Below, in pieces: positions 1 to 4,800 of a stretch of DNA of 64,000 bases. The DNA lies in assembly GCF_029392875.1 (NCBI RefSeq), contig NZ_CP113946.1:1922001-1986000 (forward strand), read 5' to 3'. Position 1 is the stretch's first letter. Each line of letters starts with the position of its first letter. The notes under the pieces are model-generated. The model did no database searches and was not told the DNA's origin. It was given only the letters and a program-made list of their open reading frames with translations. Origin of the DNA: Lactobacillus sp. ESL0677 (GTDB lineage Bacteria > Bacillota > Bacilli > Lactobacillales > Lactobacillaceae). A program made the translations under genes and the position numbers.

Positions 1-59
1 ATTACTTTAAGCCAAGAATCTGTAATTAGATTAAAGTCTTTTTCAATCATCATCATCAT
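1..59 (-). CDS. cse1: Cse1/CasA (Cas8e) of type I-E Cascade, N-terminus only
   Basis: Reading leftward from position 59 the frame gives four Met codons, then I-E-K-D-F-N-L-I-T-D-S-W-L-K-V up to the window edge. The FNLIT-x-x-W pattern is the usual start of Cse1/CasA, the large Cascade subunit that recognises the PAM. It overlaps the 3' end of cas3 by about 17 bases in another frame; the run of Asp codons ending Cas3 is the run of ATGs opening Cse1. The true start is unclear: the weak AAAGG just upstream (60-64) favours the third or fourth ATG (53 or 50). Its position directly after cas3 fits a cas3-cse1-cse2-cas7-cas5-cas6e-cas1-cas2 operon leaving the window. Only about 19 residues are visible. 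Confidence 0.8.
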   Translation of the reverse strand, partial: MMMMIEKDFNLITDSWLKV

Positions 60-2793
60 CCTTTGTATAACTTAAACCAAACTGCTCAGAATACTGCAAT
101 TTCCACTTACCAAGAGTAGTTGTTAAATTTTCATCTAATGGCAAGGCTAAGGCACCTTTGAGCAAAACACTATTTTGCCAATCGGCACAGTATTTATTAG
201 TAAGTTTTTCTAAGCGTTTAATTACCGCTTCAATTTCATTAGTATACTGGGTAATTGCAGTTGGTAGTCTGATTACTTGCTCTGAAATATCATAATCTGA
301 AACCTGAGCTAAATCTTGACCATTAATTAAAAAGTTGCCCTTAGCTATATGCTTAAGCAAAATAACTTCAATTGTTTCCTGAATATCGCGGACAGACGCA
401 CTAGCCTTTTGTTCATCCTTATCAACATCTAATTGATCATAATTCAGCCAGCCATGAATTGATTCTTCAGGGTCAGGATCATTAATTTGAAAATTACCGG
501 CTTTTTGTTCCTCTTTTTCAATATAAAGATCAAATTCTTCTTTTGCTTTTTCAATTCCAGCAACTTTAGAATCAGTTTTAGGATTATAAACTTGCTGGAC
601 AAGATTAGAAATATCATCAGGTAACGTAATAGTATCTGGCAAAAAATGATCCGTCTTCATTAACAAATATTTATGATAAATGCTCTCATTGGCTGCGCCA
701 TAATCGCCAAAATCGTTAATTCCCATCACATAAAGTTGTGGCTGCTCTAAATTTTTCGGTCTAGTAATTTCATGGCGATGCAAACGCCCTGCCCGCTGCA
801 AAATCAAATCAATTGGTGCAATATCTGTATAAAGAACATCAAAGTCAATATCCAAAGATTGCTCTAAAACCTGTGTCCCAATTACAACTAATTTTTTTGG
901 TCTCTTACCTTTTTTGCCAATCGCATTTTGCAATTTTGTTTCCTGTGCTGTACGTTCTGGCGCTAAAAAGGCAGAATGTAAAACCATGAATTCTACATCG
1001 GATTGCGCAACTAATTTAGCCAATGATTGTGCGCGTTTAACTGTATTTACAATAACTCCAGCAATCCCACCAGCTTTTATCTTATTTAAAATAGCAGCTA
1101 CCAATTCATCATCAGGTAAATTAATTCTTTCAACCTGCAACTTTTGTACTTTCTGGTCGCTTTGACCAGGGAATTCTGAAATTTGCTTTAACTGACAGCC
1201 ATCCAGAATACTTACTAATGGATATGCTTGATTGTTTTCCCAATCAGCAGGCGCCTTAAATTTTGAAGCAAATTGCCAACCATACTTACCAATTAAATAT
1301 GATTGAATCAATAACCTTCTCTTTTCTGTTGGCAATGTTGCTGACAGAATTACAATCGGAACATGGTATGTACCTAGCCATGTGATTGCCTTATACAAAT
1401 ATTGACTCATGTATGCATCATAAGCATGGACCTCATCAATCACAACTACTTTGCCGCTCAAACCTAAATGCTTTAAAAACAAATGCTTTTGCTTTAATCC
1501 CATCGAAAGCAGATTATCAATCGTACCAATCGTGAACTTAGTCAGGATAGTCTTTTTCCCAGAAAACCAGCTATTAACTGTAACAGCTCCAGTATCTGTA
1601 TCATCTGCCACATTTTCCGCATCAGGTAGCCTTTTATATTCGCTATTAAACGCTTTTTTACTGTGCATTAATTCAATTGAAAAATCACCGTGTTGCTCAT
1701 CAGATAGTTTTTGCAGCCAATACCCAACTCGACTAAACATTCCATTACTAGTTGCCTGTGTTGGCAAACCCATAAATAATCCATCTGCGCCGGTAATATA
1801 AGCTAACTGTTCAGCAGCAACTAGTGCAATCTCTGTTTTACCTAGGCCCATTGGCGCTTCGACAATGATCATACCCGGATCAGTCGTTTCACCAATTGCT
1901 TTAGTTATTGCCTTTTGAACTGGTCTTGCTTTAAACTGCCATCTCTTTTCATACGGGTCAGTTGCTTCAGAAACTTTTTGTGGCTCCCATTCATCGCCAA
2001 GATACCAATTGCGCATCGCCTGTTCAAAACGCTCTTCCATATTTAAATCATGCCAAGTTTGATCTAGTCTAATTAACGGAAAGAGCTCTTCACCATTATG
2101 TGTGCGCTCACTTGAAGCTAGCCAATCAGCCATAATTATTAGGCCTTCCAATATCACAGCTTGCGGTTGAGTAATGTCCGGAATATCTGCAACACTTTGA
2201 TAACCTGCAATTGCTAAGCCATATTCAAACAATTCTTTTTGGACTTGCCGCCAAGGCGTTTTTAGGATTTCATTTTGATCACTTTGATAATAATTTGCTG
2301 TATGACTCCTAATTTCATCATACGGAGTGGTTGACTCAGGCTTACCATGATGGCCGCCAATCAATGCAGCCACATTTTCTGGCACACCAAATTTTAGTAA
2401 TAAAGCTTCTCCAGCTCGGTTATGTGGAGATTCTCTTCGGAGCGACAATTCCAAATTATTAAGGTCAGAGAAGCCTTGCCTGATTAGCCTTTCAATCAAA
2501 GCATTATCTAAATCATCATCATGAATATATGCCTTTTTAGTTTGAAAAGCTGGTGTGGCTTTGCCAAAGTCGTGGATAAAGCCCAAGAACTTGACCAATT
2601 TATGAATTTCGTCATCAGACAAATTTCCTTTTAAAAATTGACGTTGATTATTAGATAACCAATGATTATATAAAAAATTAATTACATTTTTAGTATCTGT
2701 TAAGTGAGCAATCAATGGTAACCATTTTTGTTGCCCATCTTCTGTATTTTTCTTTGCCCATAATGCTAAAGTTTTACTTGATAAAGCTGTCAT
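43..2793 (-). CDS. cas3: CRISPR-associated helicase/nuclease Cas3 (type I-E)
   Basis: Cas3 is recruited by target-bound Cascade, nicks the displaced strand with its HD domain and degrades DNA while translocating. The product is about 916 residues, normal for a full-length HD-helicase Cas3. Visible motifs: HD pair at about 75-76 (GFIHDFGK), histidines at about 149-150 (GGHHGKP), MADWLAS at about 222, Walker A APMGLGKT at about 314-321, DEVH box at about 454, SAT motif at about 485, and the C-terminal RecA motif ending QRAGRLHRH. The C-terminus ends in poly-Asp. A GTG at 2796 and an ATG at 2793 both lie a suitable distance from the Shine-Dalgarno AAGGAG (2804-2809); ATG is preferred here. The gene looks intact. 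It is preceded by a sigma-A promoter and a mini-CRISPR that may regulate it. Confidence 0.97.
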   Translation of the reverse strand: MTALSSKTLALWAKKNTEDGQQKWLPLIAHLTDTKNVINFLYNHWLSNNQRQFLKGNLSDDEIHKLVKFLGFIHDFGKATPAFQTKKAYIHDDDLDNALIERLIRQGFSDLNNLELSLRRESPHNRAGEALLLKFGVPENVAALIGGHHGKPESTTPYDEIRSHTANYYQSDQNEILKTPWRQVQKELFEYGLAIAGYQSVADIPDITQPQAVILEGLIIMADWLASSERTHNGEELFPLIRLDQTWHDLNMEERFEQAMRNWYLGDEWEPQKVSEATDPYEKRWQFKARPVQKAITKAIGETTDPGMIIVEAPMGLGKTEIALVAAEQLAYITGADGLFMGLPTQATSNGMFSRVGYWLQKLSDEQHGDFSIELMHSKKAFNSEYKRLPDAENVADDTDTGAVTVNSWFSGKKTILTKFTIGTIDNLLSMGLKQKHLFLKHLGLSGKVVVIDEVHAYDAYMSQYLYKAITWLGTYHVPIVILSATLPTEKRRLLIQSYLIGKYGWQFASKFKAPADWENNQAYPLVSILDGCQLKQISEFPGQSDQKVQKLQVERINLPDDELVAAILNKIKAGGIAGVIVNTVKRAQSLAKLVAQSDVEFMVLHSAFLAPERTAQETKLQNAIGKKGKRPKKLVVIGTQVLEQSLDIDFDVLYTDIAPIDLILQRAGRLHRHEITRPKNLEQPQLYVMGINDFGDYGAANESIYHKYLLMKTDHFLPDTITLPDDISNLVQQVYNPKTDSKVAGIEKAKEEFDLYIEKEEQKAGNFQINDPDPEESIHGWLNYDQLDVDKDEQKASASVRDIQETIEVILLKHIAKGNFLINGQDLAQVSDYDISEQVIRLPTAITQYTNEIEAVIKRLEKLTNKYCADWQNSVLLKGALALPLDENLTTTLGKWKLQYSEQFGLSYTKDDDDD

Positions 2794-2838
2794 CACTTTA
2801 AATCTCCTTAGTTTATTTTTTTATTAATTATTAAGTTC

Positions 2839-2867
2839 AATATATACTCTTACACGCCTCGTTGCAA
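2839..2867 (-). promoter_or_regulatory. Predicted sigma-A promoter of cas3
   Basis: On the minus strand TTGCAA (2862-2867) and TATATT (2839-2844) are separated by exactly 17 bases, a near-consensus sigma-A promoter. Transcription would start around 2832-2836, about 35-40 nt before the cas3 start codon. The A/T-rich stretch 2811-2835 immediately downstream is the one matched by the spacer of the mini-CRISPR at 2922-2999. Confidence 0.7.
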
Positions 2868-2876
2868 GCGCTTTAA
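2862..2876 (+). promoter_or_regulatory. Candidate cre (CcpA) site overlapping the cas3 -35 box
   Basis: TTGCAAGCGCTTTAA fits the catabolite-responsive-element consensus WTGNAANCGNWNNCW at every defined position except one (A for the penultimate C). It shares the TTGCAA that serves as the cas3 -35 box, so binding of CcpA would be expected to block the promoter. The match is by eye only; AAGCGCTT at its centre is also a perfect palindrome. Confidence 0.4.
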
Positions 2877-2893
2877 AAATAATTTTAAATAAA

Positions 2894-2919
2894 TGGGCTA
2901 AGTATGACGCTATAGCCCA
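2894..2919 (-). terminator. Hairpin followed by T-rich tract, probable terminator of the mini-CRISPR RNA
   Basis: The arms TGGGCTA (2894-2900) and TAGCCCA (2913-2919) form a 7-bp stem with a 12-nt loop. On the minus strand it is followed by TTTATTT. It lies just downstream of the second relic repeat and just upstream of the cas3 promoter, so it would end an RNA starting at the mini-CRISPR and insulate cas3 from it. Confidence 0.5.
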
Positions 2920-2921
2920 GA

Positions 2922-2999
2922 AATTAGCCCCCACAAATGTGGGGAATACCATATTTTTATTTATTATTAACGGATGACCCTCATTATTATGAGGAATAC
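2922..2999 (-). CRISPR. Two-repeat degenerate mini-CRISPR upstream of cas3 (candidate cas-regulating crRNA-like gene)
   Basis: Two diverged copies of the type I-E repeat (2972-2999 and 2922-2949, read on the minus strand) enclose a 22-nt spacer (2950-2971), shorter than the 33-nt spacers of the main array. The decay is not random. The first repeat keeps a 6-bp stem by paired changes (CCTCAT/ATGAGG in place of CCCCAC/GTGGGG) and keeps seven of eight bases of the expected 5' handle (GGTCATCC against GGTGATCC). The second keeps its full CCCCAC/GTGGGG stem but has lost the distal tail, which a single crRNA does not need. A perfect -10 box stands 7 nt before the first repeat and a terminator-like hairpin follows the second. 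The spacer resembles the cas3 start region (18 of 22 positions). That this is a CreR-type regulator is inference; it could also be a dead remnant of the main array. Confidence 0.7.
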
Positions 3000-3006
3000 A
3001 TCTTTA

Positions 3007-3015
3007 ATTATACCA
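3007..3015 (-). promoter_or_regulatory. Extended -10 promoter for the mini-CRISPR
   Basis: On the minus strand TGGTATAAT gives a consensus TATAAT (3007-3012) with a TG extension. Start of transcription is expected at about 2999-3001, the very first base of the first relic repeat. No convincing -35 box is seen 16-18 nt upstream, which is common for extended -10 promoters. Confidence 0.5.
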
Positions 3016-3089: not shown

Positions 3090-3518
3090 TTGCTTTACAA
3101 TCTGGCATTACCTGGTACTTTATTCTTGATCATCATTTCAGTAAGGTTGCTAATACCATTTCGCCAAGTTTGTAACTGGGACTTAGTATTAACCGAAAAT
3201 GGGTACCCGGTAATTAACGTTAATCCTTCCAAAAAAGCTCGAGATAAATACATGATGGCATTAGCCACAGCAGAAGCGCCAGAAAATGACCCTCAACCAT
3301 TTAGAGAACTAATCACTGATTACGTTGAAAAAGAATTAGACTGCAGAATTAAAACTCTGCAGTTAAATGAGAAATATACTCAAGAAGCAGAAGAATCATT
3401 TAATCGTAGTGGAATAGACTGGGATAAATTAGAAAAAGAAAGACTTGCGCAAGCAGAATTAGCATCACAATACAAGGCGCAAAAAGGACTTAAACAAGAT
3501 GTCCCCGAATTAGAATGA
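3090..3518 (+). pseudogene. C-terminal remnant of a Fic-family protein
   Basis: The open frame encodes up to 142 residues. From about residue 29 it reads W-D-L-V-L-T-E-N-G-Y-P-V-I-N-V followed by R-D-K-Y-M-M-A-L-A-T-A, resembling the helices that follow the Fic active site in Fic/DOC AMP-transferases. The catalytic HPFxDGNGR motif and all N-terminal parts are missing and there is no good ribosome binding site at the first Met, so it cannot be a working Fic enzyme. It sits between the mini-CRISPR and the main CRISPR array, on the opposite strand to both, and ends at a strong terminator (3543-3572). Family assignment is by eye and moderate; the first 28 residues may be out-of-frame noise. Confidence 0.55.
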
Positions 3519-3674: not shown

Positions 3675-3755
3675 AAATAGATACTTCTCAGATTAGTTTT
3701 TTAGAGGTTATTTTTATCCTGCTTCAATCACAACATTTAATAGGATTAATTTTTA

Positions 3756-4689
3756 ACCCTCACCAGTGTGGGGAATACAGAATGTTATTTTTAGAATACA
3801 CCATAGAATCACCCCCACCTCTGTAGGGAATACCTCAATACCTACCCATTGATCACCGTCAATGTCAGGATCACCCCCATGCATGTGGGGAATACACTGC
3901 CGTTAGTCCCAGTATCCAAGGGTTCATAGGATTACCCCCACGCTTGTGGGGAATACTAAGTGTCAAAGATAGTGAGTAAGCAGTACAAAGGATCACCCCC
4001 ACCCATGTGGGGAATACGCCAGTGGCGACATGAACGGTGGCTCGTCAGCAGGATCACCCCCACGCTTGTGGGGAATACCATAAGCAGCCTTAATTTGACG
4101 ATCACTATAAAGGATCACCCCCACCCATGTGGGGAATACCACATTACCCTCAGCAACAACCTCACCAAAAACGGATCACCCCCATGCATGTGGGGAATAC
4201 TGACACAACTAGTTAGCAGTAACACTGTACCAGGGATCACCCCCACGCTTGTGGGGAATACTTAAATACCAAGCTAGAAGAAGCCAAAAATAAAGGATCA
4301 CCCCCACGCTTGTGGGGAATACAAAAGGCGCTATCTTAAAAGGTAGCGCCCCGCAGGATCACCCCCACGCTTGTGGGGAATACCGCTGCCGTCTGGATTA
4401 AGCCCGTTAATTTTCAGGATCACCCCCACGCTTATGGGGAATACATCTTTTAAGATATTGAGCAAATTATTACTTAGGGATCACCCCCACGTCTGTGGGG
4501 AATACTGATATCTAGTATCTGAATTTATTCATTGCTTCAGGATCACCCCCACGTCTGTGGGGAATACCTAACCATGTTATCAGTTTCGACGATTTAGGCG
4601 GGATCACCCCCACGTCTGTGGGGAATACTTGTTGAAACTAACAATGGCAGTATAGGCTCAAGGATCACCCCCACGTCTGTGGGGAATAC
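3756..4689 (-). CRISPR. Type I-E CRISPR array, 16 repeats and 15 spacers
   Basis: Fifteen 28-nt repeats start at 3806, 3868, 3929, 3990, 4051, 4112, 4173, 4234, 4295, 4356, 4417, 4478, 4540, 4601 and 4662; one badly decayed copy is at 3756-3778. Spacers are 33 nt except 34 nt at 3834-3867 and 4506-4539 and a 27-nt gap at 3779-3805. On the minus strand the repeat begins GTATTCCCC and ends GGTGATCC, the Lactobacillus type I-E form. Decayed repeats at the low-coordinate end put the leader at the high-coordinate end, so the array is transcribed leftward toward cas3. The loop differs among repeats: GTCT in the four leader-side copies, mostly GCTT with some CCAT and TGCATG forms farther away, while stems are kept. 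No spacer could be matched to a source by reading. Confidence 0.98.
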
Positions 4690-4800
4690 AGTAAAAGATC
4701 CCAGCTATATCAGTATCCTTAAAATGGAGAATACACTTTTTTCATTGGTTTGTAAATTTTAATTTATGATTACTTATCTTTAAAACTTTATCTATTGTCC
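4690..4800 (-). promoter_or_regulatory. CRISPR leader
   Basis: A/T-rich sequence beside the leader-end repeat. It carries a partial repeat-like GTATTCTCC (4726-4734, minus strand) 36 nt from the first repeat, forming an inverted repeat with a nearby GGATAC. It should hold the array promoter and the adaptation signals. It reaches almost to the eamA stop codon, with no terminator seen between, so read-through from that gene is possible. Confidence 0.6.

Follow-up and report, generated by a model that had tools for sequence, protein, structure and literature searches.

A degenerate mini-CRISPR upstream of cas3 in Lactobacillus sp. ESL0677 as a candidate CreR-type autorepressor of a type I-E system

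The closest described systems are the CreRs, which autorepress type I-B, I-E and V-A systems through partial promoter complementarity according to the available sections of three accounts (PMC13131331; also PMC12737573 and PMC12948488), all of which lead back to Liu et al. 2023 (pmid 37659410) as the primary source. A CreR in type I-E is already reported in these sections, and the unit described here, found in a stretch of 64,000 nucleotides of Lactobacillus sp. ESL0677 (hereafter the window), is a well-supported further case. Both consist of a mini-CRISPR with partial complementarity to a cas promoter, with a crRNA-like RNA (predicted here), and the CreRs generally lack a toxin gene. In the window a mini-CRISPR with degenerate repeats is linked to the cas operon, and a limited complementarity to the cas promoter lies beside a PAM, the promoter being predicted and the AA-type PAM being taken from another species. 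Mirrored substitutions in guide and target, neutral sixth positions, two guide-length classes, and array-tail and inverted copies, seen in the window or in the set of loci described below, go unmentioned in the compared sections of the CreR accounts. Among the literature matches listed, none concerned a CreR in lactobacilli, Liu et al. 2023 lying outside that scope.

The CreA guide of CreTA, as presented in the available parts of PMC9458426 and PMC10989794, likewise has degenerate repeats and matches a promoter with a seed of about 11 nt. In those parts the target of CreTA is the promoter of a toxin gene and its first repeat is the more diverged one, whereas in the window the guide matches the cas3 promoter, repeat 1 keeps handle and stem, and it is repeat 2 that loses its tail. 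The guide of CreTA lies on the creT toxin promoter; the target found here adjoins the predicted cas3 transcription start instead. Racr, a viral solitary-repeat anti-CRISPR RNA (PMC10651486, in the portion available), is also a repeat-like RNA outside arrays; unlike it, the unit of the window is chromosomal, has two repeats on a 2.03-Mb contig in place of a solitary repeat on a viral genome, and matches a promoter. Finally, the spacers of ordinary I-E arrays and the mini-CRISPR guides share repeat architecture and PAM, whereas the guides are about 12 nt shorter in 16 of 27 cases, target their own cas promoter and pair with it partially.

The features of the locus are collected in Table 1. The genome that carries the window (G000) is a single contig, and its closest named relative found is Lactobacillus sp. 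ESL0679, whose cas3 is 97% identical. Behind cas3 the operon continues with cse1, cse2, cas7, cas5, cas6e, cas1 and cas2, a complete I-E set, with a score of 69.0 for the Cse1 model, whose cut-off is 70.05. At the end of this operon (L061:6226-7122), Cas2e (TIGR01873, residues 1–85) is fused to a DnaQ-like 3'-5' exonuclease domain. Further similar repeats are placed beside the cas2 end (G000:C1:1913638-1915259), and the mini-CRISPR itself lies between the ordinary array and cas3. The loop of the repeat hairpin varies blockwise along that array (e.g. GCTT, CCAT and GTCT types), with stem and handle nearly constant. The open reading frame at 3090–3518 gave no Pfam family.

Table 1. Features of the cas3–mini-CRISPR region, in window coordinates.
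Feature	Position	Strand	Remarks
cas3, type I-E helicase-nuclease, first gene of the cas operon	43..2796	-	TIGR01587 and TIGR01596 above cut-offs
cas3 start codon	GTG at 2796 or ATG at 2793	-	
Target (protospacer strand)	2814..2835	-	18/22 identical to spacer; start close to predicted cas3 transcription start
PAM of target, GAA	2836..2838	-	
Predicted cas3 promoter, TTGCAA, 17 nt, TATATT	2839..2867	-	promoter scan
Hairpin 3' of repeat 2, 7 bp, 12-nt loop	2894..2919	-	possible terminator or attenuating structure
Repeat 2	2922..2949	-	stem intact, 3' tail gone
22-nt spacer (guide; 21 nt + PAM-derived base)	2950..2971	-	
Repeat 1	2972..2999	-	5' handle kept, one change
Extended -10 box TGGTATAAT, predicted mini-CRISPR promoter	3007..3015	-	ends 7 nt before repeat 1
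Ordinary I-E array of the same system, 61-nt spacing	3751..4698	-	source of control spacers

A letter-by-letter check bore out the two repeats and the 22-nt spacer that the first-pass annotation had placed on the cas3 strand, with their coordinates, and also the selective decay that it had described, the handle of repeat 1 being kept with one change, the stems being kept and the tail of repeat 2 being lost. Two stem pairs of repeat 1 differ from the array repeat on both sides and pairing is retained. The -10 box claimed 7 nt before repeat 1 has the expected sequence (3015–3007), the promoter remaining a prediction; it is absent from the list of the promoter scan (an extended -10 box is present, with no good -35), a scan that returned 2 promoter-like sites against 2.2 expected by chance. 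A TATAAT with an upstream TG stands at the same spacing to repeat 1 in L062–L064. The terminator-like hairpin proposed earlier is present at 2919–2894 and was not scored as a terminator, the sole terminator-like hit on the minus strand being repeat 2 itself. The predicted fold of 2999–2880 (z = -2.7) contains the hairpins of repeat 1, repeat 2 and 2919–2894, and pairs part of the spacer with the downstream A/T tract. The E. coli crRNA handle has 8 nt, and by analogy with it the start of the processed RNA, formerly put at about 2979, is now predicted at 2978 (GUCAUCCG).

Comparison of the spacer with 2835–2814 confirmed base for base the match that had been read at 18 of 22 positions, in which positions 1, 10, 19 and 22 differ and GAA lies directly 5'. 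The mismatch at position 1 is expected, since the first "spacer" base is the PAM-derived base of the repeat (29+32 convention). As had been claimed, the target is placed at the cas3 start, adjoining a transcription start that follows from the predicted promoter. The shuffle-based statistics proposed with the first reading were moderate (p 0.002–0.0065): with an AA PAM required and 15 positions scored, two detectors gave p = 0.0022 and 0.004 against dinucleotide-shuffled spacers, and shuffles over 18 positions with no PAM gave p = 0.0065. Taken alone, the 18/22 match of this A/T-rich sequence is moderately unlikely by chance, and thus suggestive, not decisive. The pattern of matched positions plus PAM occurs exactly at one site of the whole genome, the cas3 promoter, at no site with one mismatch and at 15 with two, one of them the spacer itself (11 sites for a reversed control pattern); having been built from the match, the pattern provides no independent test.

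The match was then considered across 101 cas3 loci, 90 from the family of the window and 11 from other families of the order. The 90 came from two overlapping searches, of 150 genomes (41 matched, many of them distant helicases) and of 397 genomes (74 matched), and the 11 from a search of 395 genomes, in which 13 of other families matched and loci were obtained for 11; G054 was left out, its cas3 start being missing. A unit was defined as a hairpin followed by the 3' handle of the repeat, and was called isolated when no intact repeat handle lay at 55–67 nt, a class that takes in the array-tail units of L087 and L099, with degenerate neighbours. Of 67 isolated units up to 1200 nt upstream of cas3, 31 carry a guide that matches the upstream region of their own cas3 next to an AA PAM (10/10 seed or at least 13/15, region -900 to +80); of 185 units that have an array neighbour, none does in the same test (Fisher 2e-21, over loci that are phylogenetically non-independent, 32 tabulated loci holding 27 distinct spacers). 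Several detectors were used in turn, with thresholds loosened after earlier hits for units with an ill-fitting stem or loop; this latest test extended the target region to -900, from -400 before, and the array controls were run with identical code. The shuffle test (p ≤ 0.01, region -400 to +80) selected 27 of 184 isolated units (one being the L146 artefact), 1 of 94 array-end and 1 of 498 array-interior units, and an earlier detector 21 of 186 units in chains of one or two versus 1 of 760 interior ones. In 22 loci preselected for a good match the own promoter was the joint best in 20, with a mean of 13.3/15 on the own promoter versus 9.2 off the diagonal, values inflated by that selection and by shared ancestry.

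All detectors pooled, 35 of the 101 loci hold a candidate (29/90 in the family of the window and 6/11 outside it), and 66 gave none with any detector. Five of the 35 are weak: L093 and L096, with a perfect seed only and shuffle p of 0.11 and 0.14, not significant, L136 (p = 0.04), L029 (p = 0.035) and L167 (p = 0.015). L136 entered late, as did L128 and L163, which carry no shuffle p, and L087, L094, L145 and L167 are earlier candidates that the 31/67 test missed. L138 (p = 0.02) was left out, and two others were dropped, L146 as an artefact of array repeats matching each other and L141 as antisense repeat pieces. Five of the 14 mini-CRISPR hits at p ≤ 0.01 in a test free of the PAM condition had no AA; four of these were antisense repeat pieces misread as units, and the fifth, L072, has a best PAM-free site that differs from its AA site. 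The array-end hit L092 also has no AA. A simple sigma-70 picker placed promoters inconsistently in the other loci, and their targets are therefore not placed relative to promoters.

The close relatives offer a finer view of the match. Spacer and target in G010 are identical to those of the window. The G048 spacer differs from it at indices 6, 14 and 15 (the PAM-derived base being 0), and its target carries these three changes as well (3/3), with a fourth at index 21. In G051 the spacer shows six differences, of which those at 3, 11, 14 and 15 are mirrored exactly in the target (4/6); at the PAM-derived index 0 and at index 6, a base that Cascade flips out, spacer and target have both changed, to different bases, and the target is also altered at 9, already a mismatch. 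Thus, wherever the spacer has changed at a pairing position, the target has changed likewise. The first-pass annotation had pointed to spacer and promoter covarying in related genomes as a check, which is what the window shows against G048 and G051, and had taken free drift in relatives, with loss of the match, as the outcome that would speak against it; the relatives gave the opposite result, the match being kept. Compensation is seen in the repeats as well: in the 13 loci with enough array repeats, 13 stem pairs of repeat 1 have changed on both sides and still pair, with none broken, 10 have changed on one side and pair, and 8 have changed on one side and are broken, all of these in L094, L096 and L115, where the repeat is apparently shifted in register.

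These observations bear on a first alternative, by which the unit is what remains of the end of an old, decaying array and the likeness of its A/T-rich spacer to the promoter is fortuitous. The degenerate repeats, the short spacer and the modest significance of the window match fit such an origin, and the caution about A/T-rich similarity, voiced from the beginning, holds for the window sequence by itself. For the set of loci chance is rejected: the mirrored substitutions, the contrast between isolated and array units and the doubly changed stem pairs all run against it, the eight broken pairs notwithstanding, and this alternative appears very improbable.

The sites also share a PAM and a pattern of pairing. 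When seed-perfect sites were sought with no PAM condition, 25 of 31 carried AA (a count that includes the L146 artefact) against a background of 0.118, in support of the AA-type PAM proposed earlier; five of the six non-AA sites came from artefact units (three in L146, one each in L069 and L102) and the other is a second L109 site. For a Ligilactobacillus I-E Cascade, a cell-free assay confirmed AAT as a PAM, as stated in the section available of PMC11288051. Over the 27 distinct spacers, matches at positions 1 to 5 number 27, 27, 26, 27 and 27, at positions 7 to 11 27, 27, 24, 25 and 27, and at position 13 25, declining afterwards, with counts at scored positions raised by the choice of site. 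Positions 6 and 12 each match in 7 of 27; they were unscored in that choice, so that chance level is expected there if nothing selects. The fair comparison is a balanced phase test, in which skipping 6 and 12 yields 24 seed-perfect isolated units (23 without L146), skipping any other pair six apart (five phases) yields 3 to 6, and interior units yield 0 or 1 of 498 (23 versus 6 of 184, Fisher p = 0.0015). Cascade flips out each sixth base of the crRNA, and position 6 is less important for binding (PMC5904413, in the part available). The window itself does not show this comb, owing to the inner mismatch of its clade at position 9.

Maintenance of the match by selection, a criterion of our own and not one from the papers, is indicated by co-substitution together with this profile. 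Judged from the sequences compared, the match between guide and own promoter is under selection, with co-evolution across the lineage. A spacer acquired from the host's own cas promoter, self-targeting and now decaying to escape autoimmunity, would account for the AA PAM and the protospacer geometry, which are what acquisition would give, and for the matching spacers at the end of ordinary arrays in L087 and L099. Decay would not change guide and target alike, nor would it spare the paired positions, and as an account of the present units it too is very improbable; as the origin of the guide, a self-acquired spacer remains plausible.

The length of the spacer divides the 27 guides into two classes, with 21–24 nt in 16, 32–36 nt in 11 and none between, these lengths depending on an automatic placement of repeat 2 that fits poorly in L075 (3/7 pairs). 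The short class pairs further, at 35 of 64 cells at indices 16, 17, 19 and 20, against 9 of 44, about chance, in the long class (Fisher p = 0.0006). In Haloarcula I-B, spacers of 21–24 nt repressed the target and those of 20–24 nt gave no priming, interference being gone as well at 24 nt (PMC10989794, available in part). The lengths support a repression-only role for the short class, which for I-E would hold by analogy.

The mini-CRISPR is very probably a CreR-type, Cascade-guided autorepressor of cas expression, a reading that draws on the mirrored substitutions, the excess of matches among isolated units, the AA PAM, the position profile, in which matches are confined to bases readable by Cascade, and the complete cas operon. 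The original suggestion of such a regulator in a Lactobacillus I-E system is in this way supported by comparative evidence. The unit would be transcribed from its own extended -10 promoter into a short crRNA-like guide, Cas6e would cut at the stem of repeat 1, and repeat 2 would form the 3' hairpin of the mature RNA. Cascade loaded with this guide would bind the AA-PAM site beginning at the predicted cas3 transcription start and pair with the template strand over about 17 to 20 bp, a short R-loop presumably insufficient for Cas3 cleavage or priming. The bound complex would block transcription initiation for cas3 and the cas genes that follow it. Cascade would thereby limit its own synthesis, and array crRNAs or anti-CRISPRs drawing Cascade off might relieve the block. 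Antisense pairing with the cas3 mRNA was rejected for the window, since the guide has the same sense as the mRNA and cannot act antisense on it. Counter-evidence comes from E. coli, where partial off-target binding of Cascade was transcriptionally silent and promoter repression is said to drop greatly with 6 PAM-distal mismatches (both in the part available of PMC5904413). The modest significance of the window match, the 66 loci that gave no candidate and two clear mini-CRISPRs that lack a convincing match (L068 and L144) also weigh against this reading.

Two further alternatives were considered. A decoy crRNA-like RNA might occupy Cas6e or Cascade in the manner of Racr, its promoter match being incidental, and a short guide with both hairpins would presumably load Cas proteins as well; the conserved match to the own promoter beside a PAM argues against it, none of the phage and plasmid records searched matched the mini-CRISPR region at the sensitivity used, and the decoy is even less probable than the alternatives above. 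Least probable of all is a CreTA-like addiction module whose guide represses a hidden toxin gene upstream of cas3, since for all its identical anatomy of two degenerate repeats adjoining cas genes the target lies between the predicted -10 and the cas3 start codon, and the 125 nt from repeat 2 to cas3 hold no open reading frame of at least 60 aa (smaller frames and RNA toxins falling outside this count).

For the autorepressor reading a wider proposal can be put forward tentatively, with slightly less than even confidence: guides across the Lactobacillales would have co-evolved with their own cas3 promoters and largely been cut to 21–24 nt, about two Cas7 footprints below the immune guide, giving a smaller, repression-only Cascade, so that one operon would supply two complexes, one that destroys and one that regulates, with the array-tail guides showing the origin in an old self-targeting spacer. 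The candidates suggest that lactobacilli and related members of the order commonly repress their own cas genes by way of a crRNA-like guide. The level of cas expression, and with it phage defence and editing by means of these systems, may hinge on a 22-nt guide that annotation is likely to pass over. The special value of the case lies in the lineage-wide co-evolution and the neutral sixth positions. The set of loci can be read as a natural mutational scan, with positions 6 and 12 free and the rest kept by evolution, and its profile as a putative in vivo record of the base-pairing geometry of Cascade and of the pairing sufficient for regulation without self-destruction.

Several loci depart from the arrangement of the window. 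The L065 unit is inverted with respect to cas3 and matches the cas3 promoter all the same, a point in favour of action in trans. In L087 (R1 end at -2444) and L099 (R1 end at -354) the cas3-matching spacer sits at the end of an ordinary array, an arrangement from which the mini-CRISPR may have arisen. The two-repeat units of L068 and L144 are clear, and neither matches the region upstream of its cas3 convincingly; in L068 the best AA-PAM site, at -674, reaches 9/10 in the seed and 12/15. With the unit or target about 190–760 nt from cas3 in L099, L109, L128, L137, L160, L163, L164 and L166, the promoter under control in these loci is unproven. In four of them, from another family (L160, L163, L164 and L166), the unit stands 68 to 161 nt upstream of cas3 and the target about 330–370 nt upstream. 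An HTH_3 gene begins just after the guide target in L164, which suggests that this guide may act on a promoter upstream of both the HTH gene and cas3.
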